Shown here: positions 13,245 through 60,120 of the stretch, piece by piece | How positions within the stretch are numbered: the stretch's first letter is position 1 | Layout of the letters: every line of letters starts with the position of its first letter | From: Gammaproteobacteria bacterium | Lineage (GTDB): Bacteria; Pseudomonadota; Gammaproteobacteria; Arenicellales; JAANXG01 | Direction: 5' to 3' | DNA length: 60,120 nucleotides | Assembly (NCBI GenBank): GCA_024639325.1 | Contig: JAHEIO010000017.1 | Coordinates: 1 to 60,120, forward strand | The notes under the pieces: model-generated | What the model saw: only the letters and a program-made list of their open reading frames with translations | The model's database searches: none | What the model was told of the DNA's origin: nothing | Program-made: the position numbers and the translations under genes

Positions 13245-13784
13245 TCAGCGTTCCGAGTCGTAGCTTACGAACCTCGCGTAAGCCATCAAACCGTGCATGT
13301 TGGGCATCGGCGTAAATTCGCCGTGTTCCACCAGAAAAGCATTCAACGTGTGTTCCAGCTCAGGCGAGGTGGTTTCCCACTTGGTGCCCTGGTCCATCTC
13401 CGCTACCTGTACGTTACGGCTGGACTCGCCTGATTTCAGGCCCGGCAGATAACTGAATAGACCCAGGCCCACTATTCCGGCGATGGAGGCCGCCAGTGCC
13501 AGCCCGGGTATCCACTTTACGGCAGTGGGTCTGTGCGACGGCAGCGGCCTAACCGGTTTGCTGCTGGATCCCAAAACCGGCGCCATCTTTTCCGGCAGAT
13601 CGGGCAGGTGAATGATCGCCTCGCGTCTGACCGCTGCACGTATCAGGTGATAACGCTGCCACGCATCGGCCAGGCGCGAGTCATCCCTAATCGCCACAAG
13701 AATGTCGTCCTGTTCCGATGCATCGAGTTCGTCATCCAGCAGAGCCGAAATTTTTTCGTGTATCACTTGGTCGGAGTTGTTCAT
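13245..13784 (-). CDS. rseA: Anti-sigma-E factor RseA/MucA
   Basis: A 179-residue single-pass inner-membrane anti-sigma factor. The N-terminal cytoplasmic domain carries the family pattern EKISALLDDELDASE and DSRLADAWQRYHLIR; a transmembrane segment lies at about residues 92-112 (IPGLALAASIAGIVGLGLF), followed by a periplasmic tail bound by RseB. RseP, which performs the intramembrane cut in the known cascade, is encoded in this window at 37880-39250. ATG 13784, 12 bases after rpoE. Confidence 0.93.
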   Translation of the reverse strand: MNNSDQVIHEKISALLDDELDASEQDDILVAIRDDSRLADAWQRYHLIRAAVRREAIIHLPDLPEKMAPVLGSSSKPVRPLPSHRPTAVKWIPGLALAASIAGIVGLGLFSYLPGLKSGESSRNVQVAEMDQGTKWETTSPELEHTLNAFLVEHGEFTPMPNMHGLMAYARFVSYDSER

Positions 13785-13796
13785 ATCAGCATGTGT

Positions 13797-14396
13797 CTAC
13801 TTCAGTAAAGGTGCCAGTTGTTGATCGATTGCCTCGCGCGCCCTGAAGATCCGCGATCTGACGGTGCCAATCGGGCAATCCATGACGGCCGCAATCTCTT
13901 CGTAACTCAGTCCTTCCAGTTCCCGTAATGTTATTGCCATCTTCAGTTCCTCCGGCAACTCCCGCACCGAGTGCGCGACACGATCTGCAAGCTCCTGAGT
14001 GAGCAAATTCGACTCGGGCGTACTGATATCCCGCAGGTTACGCCCGGCATCCGTCAACTCGGCATCCTGAGGCTCGACGTCCGTGTTCGGCGGGCGCCGG
14101 CTCTGGGCAACCAGGTAGTTCTTTGCCGTATTGATTGCAATCCGATACAACCAAGTATAAAACGCACTGTCTCCACGAAACCCTCCTATCGCACGATATG
14201 CCTTTATAAAGACTTCTTGCGTGATGTCCTCGATATATCCCGAATCGTAAACGTAGCGGGACACCAGATTTGCTACTTTGTGCTGGTACTTTCTAACCAG
14301 CAAGTTGAACGCAGCATCGTCTCCCGCCTGAACCCTTTTTACTATGGTCAGATCAACGCCGGGCTTATCCATGGAAATCCCGTTTAACTCGCTCAC
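13797..14396 (-). CDS. rpoE: RNA polymerase sigma factor RpoE (AlgU)
   Basis: A 199-residue ECF sigma factor controlling the envelope stress response. Region 2 is visible (FNLLVRKYQHKVANLVSRYV, DITQEVFIKAYRAIGGFRG, FYTWLYRIAINTAKNYL) and region 4 (LPEELKMAITLRELEGLSYE, AAVMDCPIGTVRSRIFRARE). GTG at 14396 and ATG at 14372 are both possible starts; neither has a strong Shine-Dalgarno sequence. A perfect GAACTT element upstream suggests autoregulation. Confidence 0.96.
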   Translation of the reverse strand: MSELNGISMDKPGVDLTIVKRVQAGDDAAFNLLVRKYQHKVANLVSRYVYDSGYIEDITQEVFIKAYRAIGGFRGDSAFYTWLYRIAINTAKNYLVAQSRRPPNTDVEPQDAELTDAGRNLRDISTPESNLLTQELADRVAHSVRELPEELKMAITLRELEGLSYEEIAAVMDCPIGTVRSRIFRAREAIDQQLAPLLK

Positions 14397-56341: not shown

Positions 56342-56578
56342 TTATCCTTTGTGCAGATCCGTATAGGGCAACAGGGCGATGTAGCGCGCCAGCTTCACGG
56401 CCTGTGATAGTTGCCGCTGGTAACGGGCCTTGGTGCCCGTATTACGGCTGGGAATTATTTTTCCGGTTTCAGTAATGTAATTCTTCAGTGTCGCGATGTC
56501 CTTGTAGTCGATTTCATCGACTCCGAGCGCGGTGAAACGGCAATATTTGCGGCGTCGCGTAAATGAGCGTGACATCAT
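56342..56578 (-). CDS. rpsR: 30S ribosomal protein S18
   Basis: A 78-residue ribosomal protein: [39 protein letters not shown] and [20 protein letters not shown] are all conserved. Two tandem ATGs (56578 and 56575) are possible; the second shares a base with the rpsF stop. Confidence 0.97.
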
Positions 56579-57192
56579 TCTTTCTCCTGTTTTAGGCCAT
56601 CTTCGGCTTTGAGGTCGTCATCGGCACCTTCCTGGTCACCAGCACCATCGGTTGTTTCGCCGCTTTCATCGGCTGTTTCCCGCGCATCTTCAGTTGCGTC
56701 CACCGCTTCATTAGTGTCGCCACGGCCCTCTCCAACGACGGGTTTCTCCGCGACGGTGCCTACCTCGGCGGTGCCTTCCTCGGCTGCGCTTTCCGAGGAT
56801 CCCGCCCCCTCCGCTACGGTCTCACGGGCGCTGCTGGCGGCAGCCGCGGCCCTCTCCCTTTCCCTCTCCTGCTCGACCTCCGTCATCATAGGTGAAGTTT
56901 CCGTGACGGCCTTTTTGCGCCGCAGCACCATGGATCGGATCACGGCGTCATTGAAGCGGAATACGTTCTCCAGTTCATCCAGCGTGGCTCGCTCACACTC
57001 GATGTTCATCAACACATAGTGCGCTTTGTGCACACCGTTGATGTGGAAGGCAAGCTGCCTGCGCCCCCAGTCCTCGAATCGATGAATTTTTCCGGCGTCT
57101 TTTTCGATCATGCCGCGGTAGCGATCCACCATAGCGGACACCTGCTCACTCTGGTCAGGGTGGACCAGAAACACGATTTCATAATGTCTCAA
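56575..57192 (-). CDS. rpsF: 30S ribosomal protein S6 with long acidic C-terminal tail
   Basis: A 205-residue S6 precursor form. Residues 1-105 are the ferredoxin-like S6 fold ([52 protein letters not shown]). Residues about 115-205 are a low-complexity tail rich in Glu, Ala, Gly and Thr, far longer than the poly-Glu tail of E. coli S6. TTG 57192 is chosen as start because AGGAG lies seven bases upstream and S6 begins exactly there; ATGs at 57240 and 57225 have no comparable site. First gene of rpsF-rpsR-rplI-dnaB-alr-radA. Confidence 0.93.
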
Positions 57193-57509
57193 AGATAGGC
57201 TCCTTATGGGTTTGCCTCCCGACATGATTCGGTGAGGCAAGGAGTTGATGTAGAAAGGCGCGCGATTCTATATGACTCCGGCGCTCGTGCCAAGGGGCGG
57301 GGATGCCGGTAATTTTCCTTCGTCGATCTGGATGAACCTGGGGTCAGTTCGGCGAACCCCGATTTCCCTCCAGCCGGCTTTAATCCGTTGTTAAGGGCTG
57401 AACCTCGGCCTCATTAAATCCAGTGCTGTCTCTACGCACCTCACTGCAGCCCGGCGTTCATCGGCGCCCGAGCTTCGCCATCGCTCGGGATTCTGGTTAG
57501 AAAAGCGGA
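57193..57509. other. 317-base intergenic region between rpsF and the B2-like gene
   Basis: It contains the rpsF ribosome binding site and the candidate promoter. A hairpin CCCGAGC/GCTCGGG (57467-57489, nine-base loop) lies 21 bases past the B2-like stop and may weakly terminate that operon; it lacks a T-run. The rest (about 57300-57460) shows no gene that I can support. Confidence 0.55.
57265..57293 (-). promoter_or_regulatory. Candidate sigma-70 promoter of rpsF operon
   Basis: On the minus strand TTGGCA (57293-57288) and TAGAAT (57270-57265) are separated by exactly 17 bases and followed by CGCGCGCC. Each hexamer matches consensus at five of six positions, and the GC discriminator fits a growth-rate-controlled promoter. 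It leaves a leader of about 65 bases before the TTG start of rpsF. Confidence 0.7.
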
Positions 57510-57929
57510 CTATCGCAGGCCCGCGAACACCCTGTAGTCGGATGGGACGACCTCACCGATAGGACGCCCGTCACACTCGAGCCAGGCATGAGCAGAAAAT
57601 TCGTCTCCGACCTTATCTACGCCGATGCGGAATTCGGATTCGATCCCGTTTCGCAGCAACAATTCCCGTAAAGCCAGGGACATGGAAAGGCAGGTGCCGA
57701 TGCCCAAACCGTTCGAGGCACGTCGAATCGCTTGCGCATATTCGTCGAGGCGTTCCGCGGGTACTGCGTCACGGGTGGCCGGCTTGAGATTATTGAATAT
57801 TGCAAAAGCGCGTTTGAAACCGAACAACTTCAAGAAGAATATCGAGCGAACGAGAAGTGGCGCGGCCTGAATAAACAGGCGACGCTCATGCGCATTTAAT
57901 TTTCGAAACCGACTCAGCCGGCGAATCAT
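57510..57929 (-). CDS. Transglutaminase-like 'lasso peptide biosynthesis B2' family protein
   Basis: A 139-residue protein matching the McjB C-terminal/transglutaminase-core-3 family, cysteine peptidases that remove leader peptides in lasso peptide pathways. The core is CLSMSLALRELLLRNGIES (probable nucleophile C80) and FSAHAWLECDGRPIGE (H114); the third, acidic member is not clear (D120 or E126). The N-terminal RRLFIQAAPLLVRSIFFLK is the family helix. ATG 57929 overlaps the PqqD-like stop by four bases (ATGA); GTG 57935 is an alternative. No asparagine-synthetase-like cyclase gene is in view, so the product is unknown. Confidence 0.82.
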   Translation of the reverse strand: MIRRLSRFRKLNAHERRLFIQAAPLLVRSIFFLKLFGFKRAFAIFNNLKPATRDAVPAERLDEYAQAIRRASNGLGIGTCLSMSLALRELLLRNGIESEFRIGVDKVGDEFSAHAWLECDGRPIGEVVPSDYRVFAGLR

Positions 57930-58201
57930 GCCCACTCTGACACAATAAGTTTCTCTTCCTTCAATTTCTGCAGAAACTGTCGCAGATCCCGTTTTGCTAC
58001 ATCAGCACCTACTTCGAATTCCCGGGTAATACGGTCCACGATCTCTTCTTCTGTTTTGTTCTTAGAAATTTCTTCCCAGATCACCGTCGCCACAGGATCG
58101 AGACCAAAGTAGCTCTGGCTATCGAGATCGAGCAGCACGGCCTCATCCCGGACTTTCTGTAGCAACACTTTAGCGGATGTCTTGATCTCTGTTTCTCTCA
58201 T
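57926..58201 (-). CDS. PqqD-family protein (RiPP recognition element-like)
   Basis: A 91-residue PqqD-fold protein. Seen: VRDEAVLLDLDSQSYFGLDP, ATVIWEEISKNKTEEEIVD and a final winged-helix segment (VAKRDLRQFLQKLKEEKLIV). PqqD-like proteins bind leader peptides in RiPP pathways, and in other clusters accompany HprK-like kinases and nucleotidyltransferases. ATG 58201 chosen; the frame runs 22 codons further with no likeness to the family. Translationally coupled to the B2-like gene. Confidence 0.82.
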   Translation of the reverse strand: MRETEIKTSAKVLLQKVRDEAVLLDLDSQSYFGLDPVATVIWEEISKNKTEEEIVDRITREFEVGADVAKRDLRQFLQKLKEEKLIVSEWA

Positions 58202-58496
58202 ATAGACCCGCCGATACGCACATACGCGTTGCCGGTAGTCTATCACCCGGATTCGGCACAGAATCAAAAAATGTCATTTGTTCGACTAGCACCGGGCTCG
58301 TTTAGCCCCAGCATACAAATACACCCGCCTGACCAGACTTTGAGTCTGCGTTTCGCGGCAAAACTAGCCCGAGTGTTCAAACACCTGCTTCGAAAGCGGG
58401 AGAGCGGGCCATTCTTCCGAATCCCGTGGCGGCGGAATATTCGCGCCGTCGGACCCCGGCCGCCGCGAAATATGGATGTGTGCAACCGAGTTTGTC
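58202..58496. other. 295-base gap upstream of the PqqD-like gene
   Basis: No supported gene. It includes a GGGCT/AGCCC hairpin on the minus strand (about 58292-58308) and a CTAGCCCGAGTGTTCA segment at 58364-58379 related to the dispersed repeat. It would be the natural place for a short RiPP precursor, but none of the short frames shows a recognisable leader/core. Confidence 0.4.
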
Positions 58497-59012
58497 TCAG
58501 CTCGTCCCGGGTTTGTTCCGGTTGATCGTCGTTTTTTCACGGACCATGGCGAGGCTTTCCAGATTCCCTTGCCTATCGAGTATGACTTTTTCGTTTTCCA
58601 CCTTGTGCAGTTGTGCATCGGTTCCTTCAATCGATTCCCCGATTGCGTACGTCTTCAATCCTTTGGAACTGACCTCGATCATGGCGCGGGCATAGTGCTC
58701 GTCCCTGCTCGCCAGGACACCGAGCAGCTTCAGTTTCAGCTTGGTTTGCGGCGCATTATCCGTCTTCTTCTCCACCGATTGATCGGCTTTCCCAAAAAGA
58801 TGTGCAGAAACGATGTTGTTGATGCTATAGCCCGATGGTCTCAATTGGTTTTGCGCCGACTCTGCGATTTCCGTGTGCCTGTCATCGGATATTCCCAGCA
58901 GTTGGGGGTAATACCGGTCAACGAACCCCCAGGCGGACCACACGATCAGCCCAATGCCCGCTGCAAGCAGTAATATTGCCGCCAGCCTGTTGTAGTCAGC
59001 AGACGCACTCAT
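58497..59012 (-). CDS. Orphan GspC-like protein (type II secretion HR domain)
   Basis: A 171-residue protein with a short cytoplasmic start, one transmembrane helix (RLAAILLLAAGIGLIVWSAW, residues 9-28) and a periplasmic domain. The HR-domain features of type II secretion protein C are present: I-V-S-A-H-L-F-G (residues 67-74), APQTKLKLKLLGVLAS, RAMIEV and TYAIGESIEG. It stops after the HR domain and lacks the PDZ or coiled-coil end of full GspC (about 270-300 residues). No other gsp gene is adjacent. ATG 59012. Confidence 0.8.
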   Translation of the reverse strand: MSASADYNRLAAILLLAAGIGLIVWSAWGFVDRYYPQLLGISDDRHTEIAESAQNQLRPSGYSINNIVSAHLFGKADQSVEKKTDNAPQTKLKLKLLGVLASRDEHYARAMIEVSSKGLKTYAIGESIEGTDAQLHKVENEKVILDRQGNLESLAMVREKTTINRNKPGTS

Positions 59013-59179
59013 GGTCGGGTAATCCTGTCGGCGATGTTCCTGATGAATTGTACTCGATTATAGCTAATAATGCCTTCGACGTGTATGAAAAACCATATTT
59101 AACTGTTTGTTTCCATTGTTGATTTTCTCGAAAAAACCTTCCCTTCTGTGATAACGTGTCGATAACCTTCCGGCGCGGC

Positions 59180-60120
59180 ATGCGCCTCGACGAGGACGGA
59201 CAAATACCCAATAACAAAATTCCCGGTTCAATTGAATTGGCCCACATCCTCTTGGAATCAACGAATGTCGAACGAGGCCAGACGGAAGCAGGATATGCTG
59301 ACAGAATTCTGGATCTGGCTAAGATTCACGGCGTTCATGCACTGCTGTATTCATTGCTCGAAAAATCTAGCGTATTGAAACACACCGATACACTGAAGCA
59401 GGCCGCTTTCCGCCAGGCAGCGCTGTTCCAGCTTCAGGACAAAGAGCTGGAAAGGGTTTGCGCGGGATTGTATGCCGCCAATGTGCCCTACCTGCTCGTC
59501 AAGGGCGCGGCGCTCTGTTACCAGATTTATGCAACCCCGGATGTAAGGCCCAGAGTCGATACAGATCTGTTTATCGATGAATCGAGCCTCGCGGACATAA
59601 GGGAGACGCTATCCTCGTTGGGTTATGAGTCAGTCCTCGCCCACGACGGCGGACTTGTCAGTTATCAGACGAGTATGAGGTACACAGATGAATGTCAGGT
59701 GGCTCACACCGTTGATATCCACTGGAACCTTTCCAACCGGCATGAATACCGGAATATCCTCAGCTTTGAATTCGTTAATGAGTCCGCCGTTACATTGCCC
59801 CGCTTTGCCTTTCCGGTGCTTGCGCCGAATTATGGGCTCGCGCTGTGCCTGGCCTGCCTCCACCTGGTCGGGCACCACTCCGAAAATCCTCGGTTGATTT
59901 GGTTTTACGACATGCATCTGCTGCTGCAGCGGATGCGACAACGGGAGATCGAGGAATTTATGGAATTGATCCGCTCCCGTAAACTGGAAAATGTAACCTG
60001 CCGGGCGCTCACGGCGCTGGAGTGTCACTTCGGCAATGAAAGCGTTTCGGCAATCCTGGAGAAACTGGGTTACGGCGACGGGATTCCCATGCCGGAAGAA
60101 TCCCGACTTGCCCTATTGAG
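59180..60120 (+). CDS. NTP_transf_5-type nucleotidyltransferase, 3' truncated by the window edge
   Basis: The frame is open to the last base, giving at least 313 residues. The segment VPYLLVKGAALCYQIYATP followed by RPRVDTDLFID is the signature of the uncharacterised nucleotidyltransferase family PF14907: K-G-A at 108-110 and the metal-binding pair D127/D129. Later helical parts include LALCLACLHLVGHHSE and WFYDMHLLLQRM. ATG 59180 or GTG 59156 may start it; neither has a clear ribosome site. It diverges from the GspC-like gene and may continue into a larger accessory cluster with the PqqD and B2 genes. Confidence 0.85.
   Translation, partial: MRLDEDGQIPNNKIPGSIELAHILLESTNVERGQTEAGYADRILDLAKIHGVHALLYSLLEKSSVLKHTDTLKQAAFRQAALFQLQDKELERVCAGLYAANVPYLLVKGAALCYQIYATPDVRPRVDTDLFIDESSLADIRETLSSLGYESVLAHDGGLVSYQTSMRYTDECQVAHTVDIHWNLSNRHEYRNILSFEFVNESAVTLPRFAFPVLAPNYGLALCLACLHLVGHHSENPRLIWFYDMHLLLQRMRQREIEEFMELIRSRKLENVTCRALTALECHFGNESVSAILEKLGYGDGIPMPEESRLALL

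Follow-up and report, generated by a model that had tools for sequence, protein, structure and literature searches.

Lasso peptides are usually mined as a single cluster in which the B and C genes are adjacent. Published work describes how the B1 protein of these pathways binds the leader of the precursor peptide (A) and activates the B2 protease, with a conserved Thr at leader position -2 (PMC10885120). It also describes lasso kinases (K) with conserved His, Lys, Asp and Asp residues (PMC9266682), the addition by PsmN of one or two hexoses to a phosphorylated C-terminal Ser in pseudomycoidin biosynthesis, and the fusion of a nucleotidyltransferase gene to B2 in some Firmicutes (both PMC9266682, PMC8498205). 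The window analysed here, a stretch of 60,120 nucleotides that makes up the whole of contig C296 of a gammaproteobacterial genome (G000), carries close to its end at 60120 genes for B1, B2, a GspC-like protein and an NTP_transf_5 nucleotidyltransferase-like protein (N). These probably represent the B1-B2 leader-processing module and the N gene of a lasso pathway whose precursor, cyclase (C) and kinase are encoded at another locus and would act in trans; we infer both the joint action of the parts and their product.

Leader-processing genes and a candidate tailoring gene in the window

Genes were called from Pfam profile scores judged against the cut-off of each model, and NCBIfam models were also scored. 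An earlier note, written by a model from the letters alone, had pointed to four genes near the contig end, and all four were found where it had placed them, each far above chance and over its Pfam cut-off. The B2 gene (57510-57935, minus strand, GTG start codon) encodes a transglutaminase-like lasso leader peptidase scoring 71.2 bits against PF13471 (cut-off 26) and 77.5 bits against the lasso B2 model NF033537 (cut-off 33), and is the sole PF13471 match in G000. A comparison of B2 with solved structures gave no match at E 0.1. The B1 gene (57926-58267, minus strand, start codon called as TTG) encodes a PqqD-fold leader-binding protein (RiPP recognition element, RRE) with 70.3 bits against PF05402 (cut-off 23.4). 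Its best NCBIfam matches are lasso PqqD models, yet under their cut-offs (52.3 against 80 and 48.6 against 70 bits). A profile built from B1 and six relatives has TbiB1 (E 2.2e-22) and TfuB1 (E 3.6e-16) as its top matches among solved structures and ranks lasso B1 structures ahead of PQQ-type PqqD. The PF13471, NF033537, PF05402 and structure-profile matches together bear out the assignment of the pair to lasso B1 and B2, which the note had proposed. The two frames share 10 bases; of the translational coupling claimed for them the overlap is confirmed, and it makes coupling itself plausible.

The N gene (59156-60120, plus strand) is cut by the contig end and scores 114.8 bits against PF14907 (cut-off 31.2). 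It is a candidate tailoring enzyme, and its Lys-Gly and Asp-x-Asp motifs are conserved in 12 of 12 aligned homologues. Precursor, cyclase and kinase profiles gave nothing significant across the 60-kb window (best precursor score 7.8 bits, E 0.84), in agreement with the earlier impression that no precursor or cyclase is visible there.

The gene group probably ends with N. The earlier note had expected an undescribed cluster to continue past 60120 and had proposed reading the next 20 kb. The own contig ends at that point, and the region was read instead in the sister species G001 (contig C137, L035), where the order outward from rpsF is B2, B1, gspC, N, a SPOR/Sel1 gene and glnB, with N at full length (L035:2741-3931). 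Because SPOR/Sel1 and glnB come next in the sister, the group is judged to stop at N, and a continuing cluster was rejected; the partners not visible in the window resemble ordinary lasso genes located elsewhere rather than a novel system. A second NTP_transf_5 gene of G000 is split across contigs C327 (L048:2-625) and C294 (L049:4467-5222), whose ends carry an exact common overlap of 121 bases; it was rejected as part of this system, its neighbours being unrelated by eye. A search for viral contigs carrying N gave 9 pattern matches, 0 of them confirmed.

The flank on the other side is rpsF (56575-57240, minus strand), encoding ribosomal protein S6 (PF01250, 100 bits), a conserved flank that lasso genes adjoin in several lineages. 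The S6 protein of the window has a long acidic C-terminal extension and measures 221 amino acids; the sister protein, in which a short repeat is expanded, measures 241. Between B1 and N lies gspC (58497-59012, minus strand), encoding a GspC-like protein with no recognised PDZ domain (PF11356, 91.9 bits, cut-off 27; TIGR01713, 58.5 bits, under the cut-off of 101.6).

Candidate partner genes in the sister, the own genome and more distant relatives

In seven genomes from two other genera of the same family, f1 (G005, G006, G008-G012), all lasso parts lie at this very place in the run N, gspC, a secreted protein of unknown family, B2, B1, K, A, C. This joined arrangement, together with the identity of B1 and B2, argues for a pathway that is split in G000. 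Where read, one flank of the f1 clusters is formed by cpdA and Sel1 (L040, L041, L046, L047, L059, L077), and the other holds an additional C-A-K set, a membrane protein gene and then rpsF (L058, L060). In a variant, G004, B2 directly adjoins rpsF and no B1 was found within that stretch. The secreted-looking protein that follows gspC (L041:5531-6403, L046:10223-11092, L047:8701-9693, L040:5346-6275, L037:338-1156) is about 270-330 amino acids long with an ADLF/ADLY motif past the signal, and a Pfam scan of the L040 copy gave no match. A giant SdrD-like gene adjoins C (L047:14022-18851, L041:10473-15350, L046:990-5993, L037:4907-7897), the L047 copy encoding repeated SdrD B-like domains.

The sister bin also contains a locus of the complementary kind. 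Its contig C567 encodes a 63-amino-acid precursor together with a lasso-type cyclase and K, an HPr-kinase-like protein, but neither B1 nor B2, as a split pathway would predict. At 22.7 bits the precursor exceeds the cut-off of the NCBIfam lasso leader model (19), and the cyclase scores 101.5 bits against PF00733 (cut-off 21). The core predicted for this precursor, GGSAGINDSGDPDGKQTPGGPS, has Asp at position 8 and ends in Ser, the cut site being inferred from the conserved Thr. In G000 itself, contig C23 (14000 bases) breaks off within a K gene (13578-14000, 101 bits, C-terminal part) whose frame is open over this part, and its surroundings match those on C567, with the same kinase gene and 89-94% identity. 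Since C23 ends in the same kinase and its surroundings correspond to the A-C-K contig, G000 most likely has its A and C genes in the assembly gap at the end of C23. The search suggested by the note for an HprK-like kinase, an asparagine synthetase and a precursor thus yielded the K fragment in G000; A and C were not found. The K end on C23 and the single PF13471 match of G000 both favour parts of one pathway at separate loci.

Across a survey of 119 genomes, PF13471 tracks the lasso cyclase. With the cyclase counted at 300 bits or more, a limit set after the list was seen, a cyclase is present in 30 of the 119 genomes and a PF13471 match in 38. PF13471 occurs in 28 of the 30 genomes with a cyclase and in 10 of the 89 that lack one (Fisher P 1.2e-16, with no correction for kinship), a co-occurrence that supports a lasso function for B2. 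G000 is one of these 10; G015, G027, G032, G062, G070, G073 and G079 likewise carry PF13471 but no cyclase that exceeds the limit, although G015, G027 and G073 come near it (263-294 bits). Among the 28 genomes with both, cyclase and PF13471 gene lie within 10 kb in 9, far apart on one contig in 1 and on different contigs in 18, the last of which does not prove distance in fragmented assemblies. Two genomes of the same genus as G000, G002 and G003, contain neither a PF13471 match anywhere nor, by profile searches, a B2, lasso cyclase or precursor, and G039 has one PF13471 gene, one PqqD gene and one lasso-type cyclase spread over three contigs; both observations fit a split pathway. The aminopeptidase neighbourhood of G002 was compared as a possible empty site for A-C-K, and the comparison gave nothing, the flanks being different.

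Other lineages divide the parts differently. In the f6 genome G017 a single locus holds glnB-B2-B1-gspC-rpsF, and a separate contig carries N, C, A and K (L050, L057). In G034, 555,598 bases of one contig separate the cyclase gene from B2. In genus g14 (family f10) the parts occupy three places. Of the 17 loci fetched, 15 have the complete run rpsF-B1-N-K; the G080 contig breaks off within B1, and G051 yielded K alone. B2 adjoins gspC divergently in 12 of 17 gspC loci. Contig ends fall between the two genes in G086, and G043, G059 and G068 have no B2 beside gspC. In G021 the B2 beside gspC is a relic interrupted by an in-frame TAG (L076; G021:C3:109467-109652), and another PF13471 gene is on C27, which would represent B2 decay in progress; G043, G059 and G068 also carry a PF13471 match elsewhere in the genome. 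The third place holds C-A (L053-L055, L061-L063, L070, L071). In L053 and L054 a gene resembling, by eye, a TonB-dependent receptor precedes C-A. Precursors of the GPTLGGGESGCEGVFRVGPGGCPIP type (L054:6941-7147, L053:7072-7356, L063:6612-6818) have two core Cys residues, which suggests a disulfide. Homologues of the window genes are thus co-located in other genomes, both in the one-locus f1 genomes and in the g14 loci. A profile scan of 80 named dnaB loci found lasso genes beside rpsF only in L115, many of these loci stopping short of rpsF.

By analogy with described pathways, K would phosphorylate the precursor at its C-terminal Ser. B1 would bind the leader, with its YxxPxLxxWG..T-x motif, present it to B2 and activate this peptidase, and B2 would cleave one residue past the conserved Thr, placing that Thr at -2. 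C would then close the ring between Gly1 and the acidic residue found eighth in the core, and N would decorate the phosphate, like PsmN in pseudomycoidin. Six cluster kinases retain the His, Lys and Asp-Asp residues, and the own K fragment on C23 spans only the Asp-Asp part. Because just 1 of 21 precursor C-termini read is Ser (7 are Thr and 13 other), K and N may act on different targets in different relatives. One precursor (L058:15181-15363) has Ile instead of Thr at the presumed leader position -2.

The kinase also bears on the statement in the earlier note that comparable groups occur with HprK-like kinases, sometimes in exopolysaccharide or exosortase loci. The kinase association was indeed seen, in the f1 runs and in the rpsF-B1-N-K runs of g14. 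That the genes belong to an HprK-related or exosortase-linked PqqD system is an idea to which we give hardly any weight. An HprK-like kinase is part of the set, and the f6 kinase weakly matches TIGR04352 (24.7 bits) and TIGR04355 (21.6 bits); however, both models have cut-offs of 200 bits, the window PqqD protein matches lasso models and lasso B1 structures best, and kinase-linked precursors pass the lasso leader model. NCBIfam models gave no match to the kinases of the sister and of G029. Such a system was rejected on these scores, and the exosortase or exopolysaccharide link found no support, the window PqqD protein matching no such model (exosortase genes were not searched for). A further PqqD gene adjoining an HprK-like gene is present on contig C78 of G000 (L064:2854-6738), next to a gene for an 891-amino-acid protein that resembles an ABC transporter by eye; this is a second, different PqqD system of the genome.

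Selection, possible decay and the gspC neighbour

Several observations weigh against a working pathway of which B1, B2 and N in the window are one part. Profile searches of the G000 assembly found no precursor (E up to 0.1) and no lasso cyclase, with nothing above 176 bits for the cyclase profile. The best NCBIfam match of the C567 cyclase is the lasso cyclase model at only 112.6 bits against a cut-off of 525, a cut-off that the cyclases of G017 and G034 (382.6 and 268.1 bits) do not reach either. The sister bin has 8% contamination and contains two copies of the aminopeptidase gene adjoining A-C-K (C43 and C567), so C567 may come from another, close strain; the K frame on C567 is interrupted. 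G025 and G080 have a cyclase without a PF13471 match, and G047 and G074 carry B2 and rpsF-B1-N-K with no precursor (E 0.1) or lasso cyclase found. The ratio of nonsynonymous to synonymous substitution rates (dN/dS) between G000 and G001 is 0.70 for B1, from just 10 changes. Asp completes the catalytic triad of lasso B2, and B2 of the window and the sister has Glu at this position, +12 from the His. Glu is also found in 12 of 13 g14 proteins and Asp in 8 of 9 one-locus proteins, the f6 protein having Ser at +12 and Asp at +11; the exchange of Asp for Glu is a conservative change.

Some of these points are what a decaying remnant would leave behind: an ancestral lasso cluster at gspC-rpsF would have been broken up, with B1, B2 and N persisting without a working pathway. 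The absence of A and C from the G000 assembly, the dN/dS of B1 and of N (0.49), the interrupted kinase frame of the sister, the B2 relic of G021, and the retention of B2, B1, N and K in G047 and G074 without detected A-C all fit such decay. We nevertheless consider it rather unlikely. The B1 and B2 frames are open in both G000 and G001 and the N frame in the sister, the reading frame of the K fragment on C23 is uninterrupted, and the catalytic Cys82 and His116 of B2 are invariant across 17 aligned sequences. The dN/dS of B2 is 0.28, similar to the 0.30 of alr, and argues against decay; gspC gave 0.29, and the further neighbours radA, dnaB and rpsF 0.19, 0.09 and 0.60. Moreover, many g14 species maintain the same parts in split form.

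The gspC gene is probably a resident of this chromosomal place, a neighbour rather than a part of the pathway, because it is present in G002 and G003 (glnB-Sel1-cpdA-gspC-rpsF), where B1, B2 and N are missing from between these genes. The earlier note had regarded it as an orphan. It is the sole PF11356 match in G000, and GspD is encoded on another contig, C153 (521.5 bits, cut-off 351); both an orphan GspC and a pathway member by origin were therefore rejected, and we take the protein to be an ordinary GspC of a type II secretion system. PF11356 matches occur in 49 of the 119 genomes, one in each except G005 (3) and G065 (2), where the extra matches are weak.

The repeated pairing of B2 with gspC, within 2 kb of each other in 22 of the 34 genomes having both (families f1, f6 and f10; hand count), could also mean that B2 has a role of its own there, such as that of a protease connected with type II secretion, and that the lasso link is incidental. 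B2 does stand alone beside gspC in g14, and G047 and G074 keep it without detected A-C. Such a role appears very improbable, however, as 15 of the 49 genomes with gspC, including G002 and G003, lack PF13471, and as PF13471 follows the lasso cyclase in the proportions given above. B2 and gspC also occur together inside full lasso clusters, so that shared ancestry of the place explains the pairing.

A stronger form of the split arrangement is conceivable, in which the scattered layout is itself stable and selected in this bacterial order. A lasso pathway with a decorated phospho-tail would then keep to two or three fixed chromosomal sites linked to core genes, with B1, N and K beside rpsF, B2 beside gspC, and A and C elsewhere. 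We regard this as an outside chance, and it is not needed to explain the data. If true, one leader-processing module could serve several precursor-cyclase pairs, and the place at gspC may tie maturation or export to type II secretion.

Comparison with known systems

Lasso pathways with K and N are already known, as is a lasso tailoring enzyme encoded away from its cluster. Among the matches listed from open-licence PMC there was no recognised report of lasso B1/B2 unlinked from A/C, which is weak evidence of absence. Mining based on clusters would label split pathways as incomplete and overlook their leader protease and N. With joined (f1) and differently split (g1, f6, g14) forms at hand, the survival of a broken-up biosynthetic pathway becomes testable, and the N genes found here add candidates for the PsmN-like step, which is poorly understood.

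The closest known counterpart is the pseudomycoidin (psm) cluster of Bacillus pseudomycoides, which has the set A, C, K (PsmK), B1, B2 and an annotated nucleotidyltransferase (PsmN) in common with the system described here. The HPr-kinase-like K of this K- and N-tailored lasso type is represented in G000 by the C23 fragment and in relatives by full genes. The likeness of the window's N to PsmN lies in the shared annotation as a nucleotidyltransferase. The psm genes form one cluster, whereas the system described here has B1, B2 and N separated from A, C and K. Paeninodin-type clusters (PadeK, ThcoK, SyanK) share the HprK-like kinase, and the precursor of the sister ends in Ser; they too are single clusters, in contrast to the system described here, and the precursors of the relatives mostly lack a C-terminal Ser (1 of the 21 read has it). 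Unclustered lanthipeptide proteases resemble the window genes in that leader protease genes lie away from the precursor (PMC8960859), but they belong to another class of RiPPs (ribosomally synthesised and post-translationally modified peptides) and are other proteases. In the citrulassin pathway, part of a lasso pathway is likewise encoded away from its cluster, namely a peptidylarginine deiminase (PMC12971885, PMC8498205); the distant gene there encodes a late tailoring enzyme, whereas here it is the leader-processing pair B1-B2 that stands apart.

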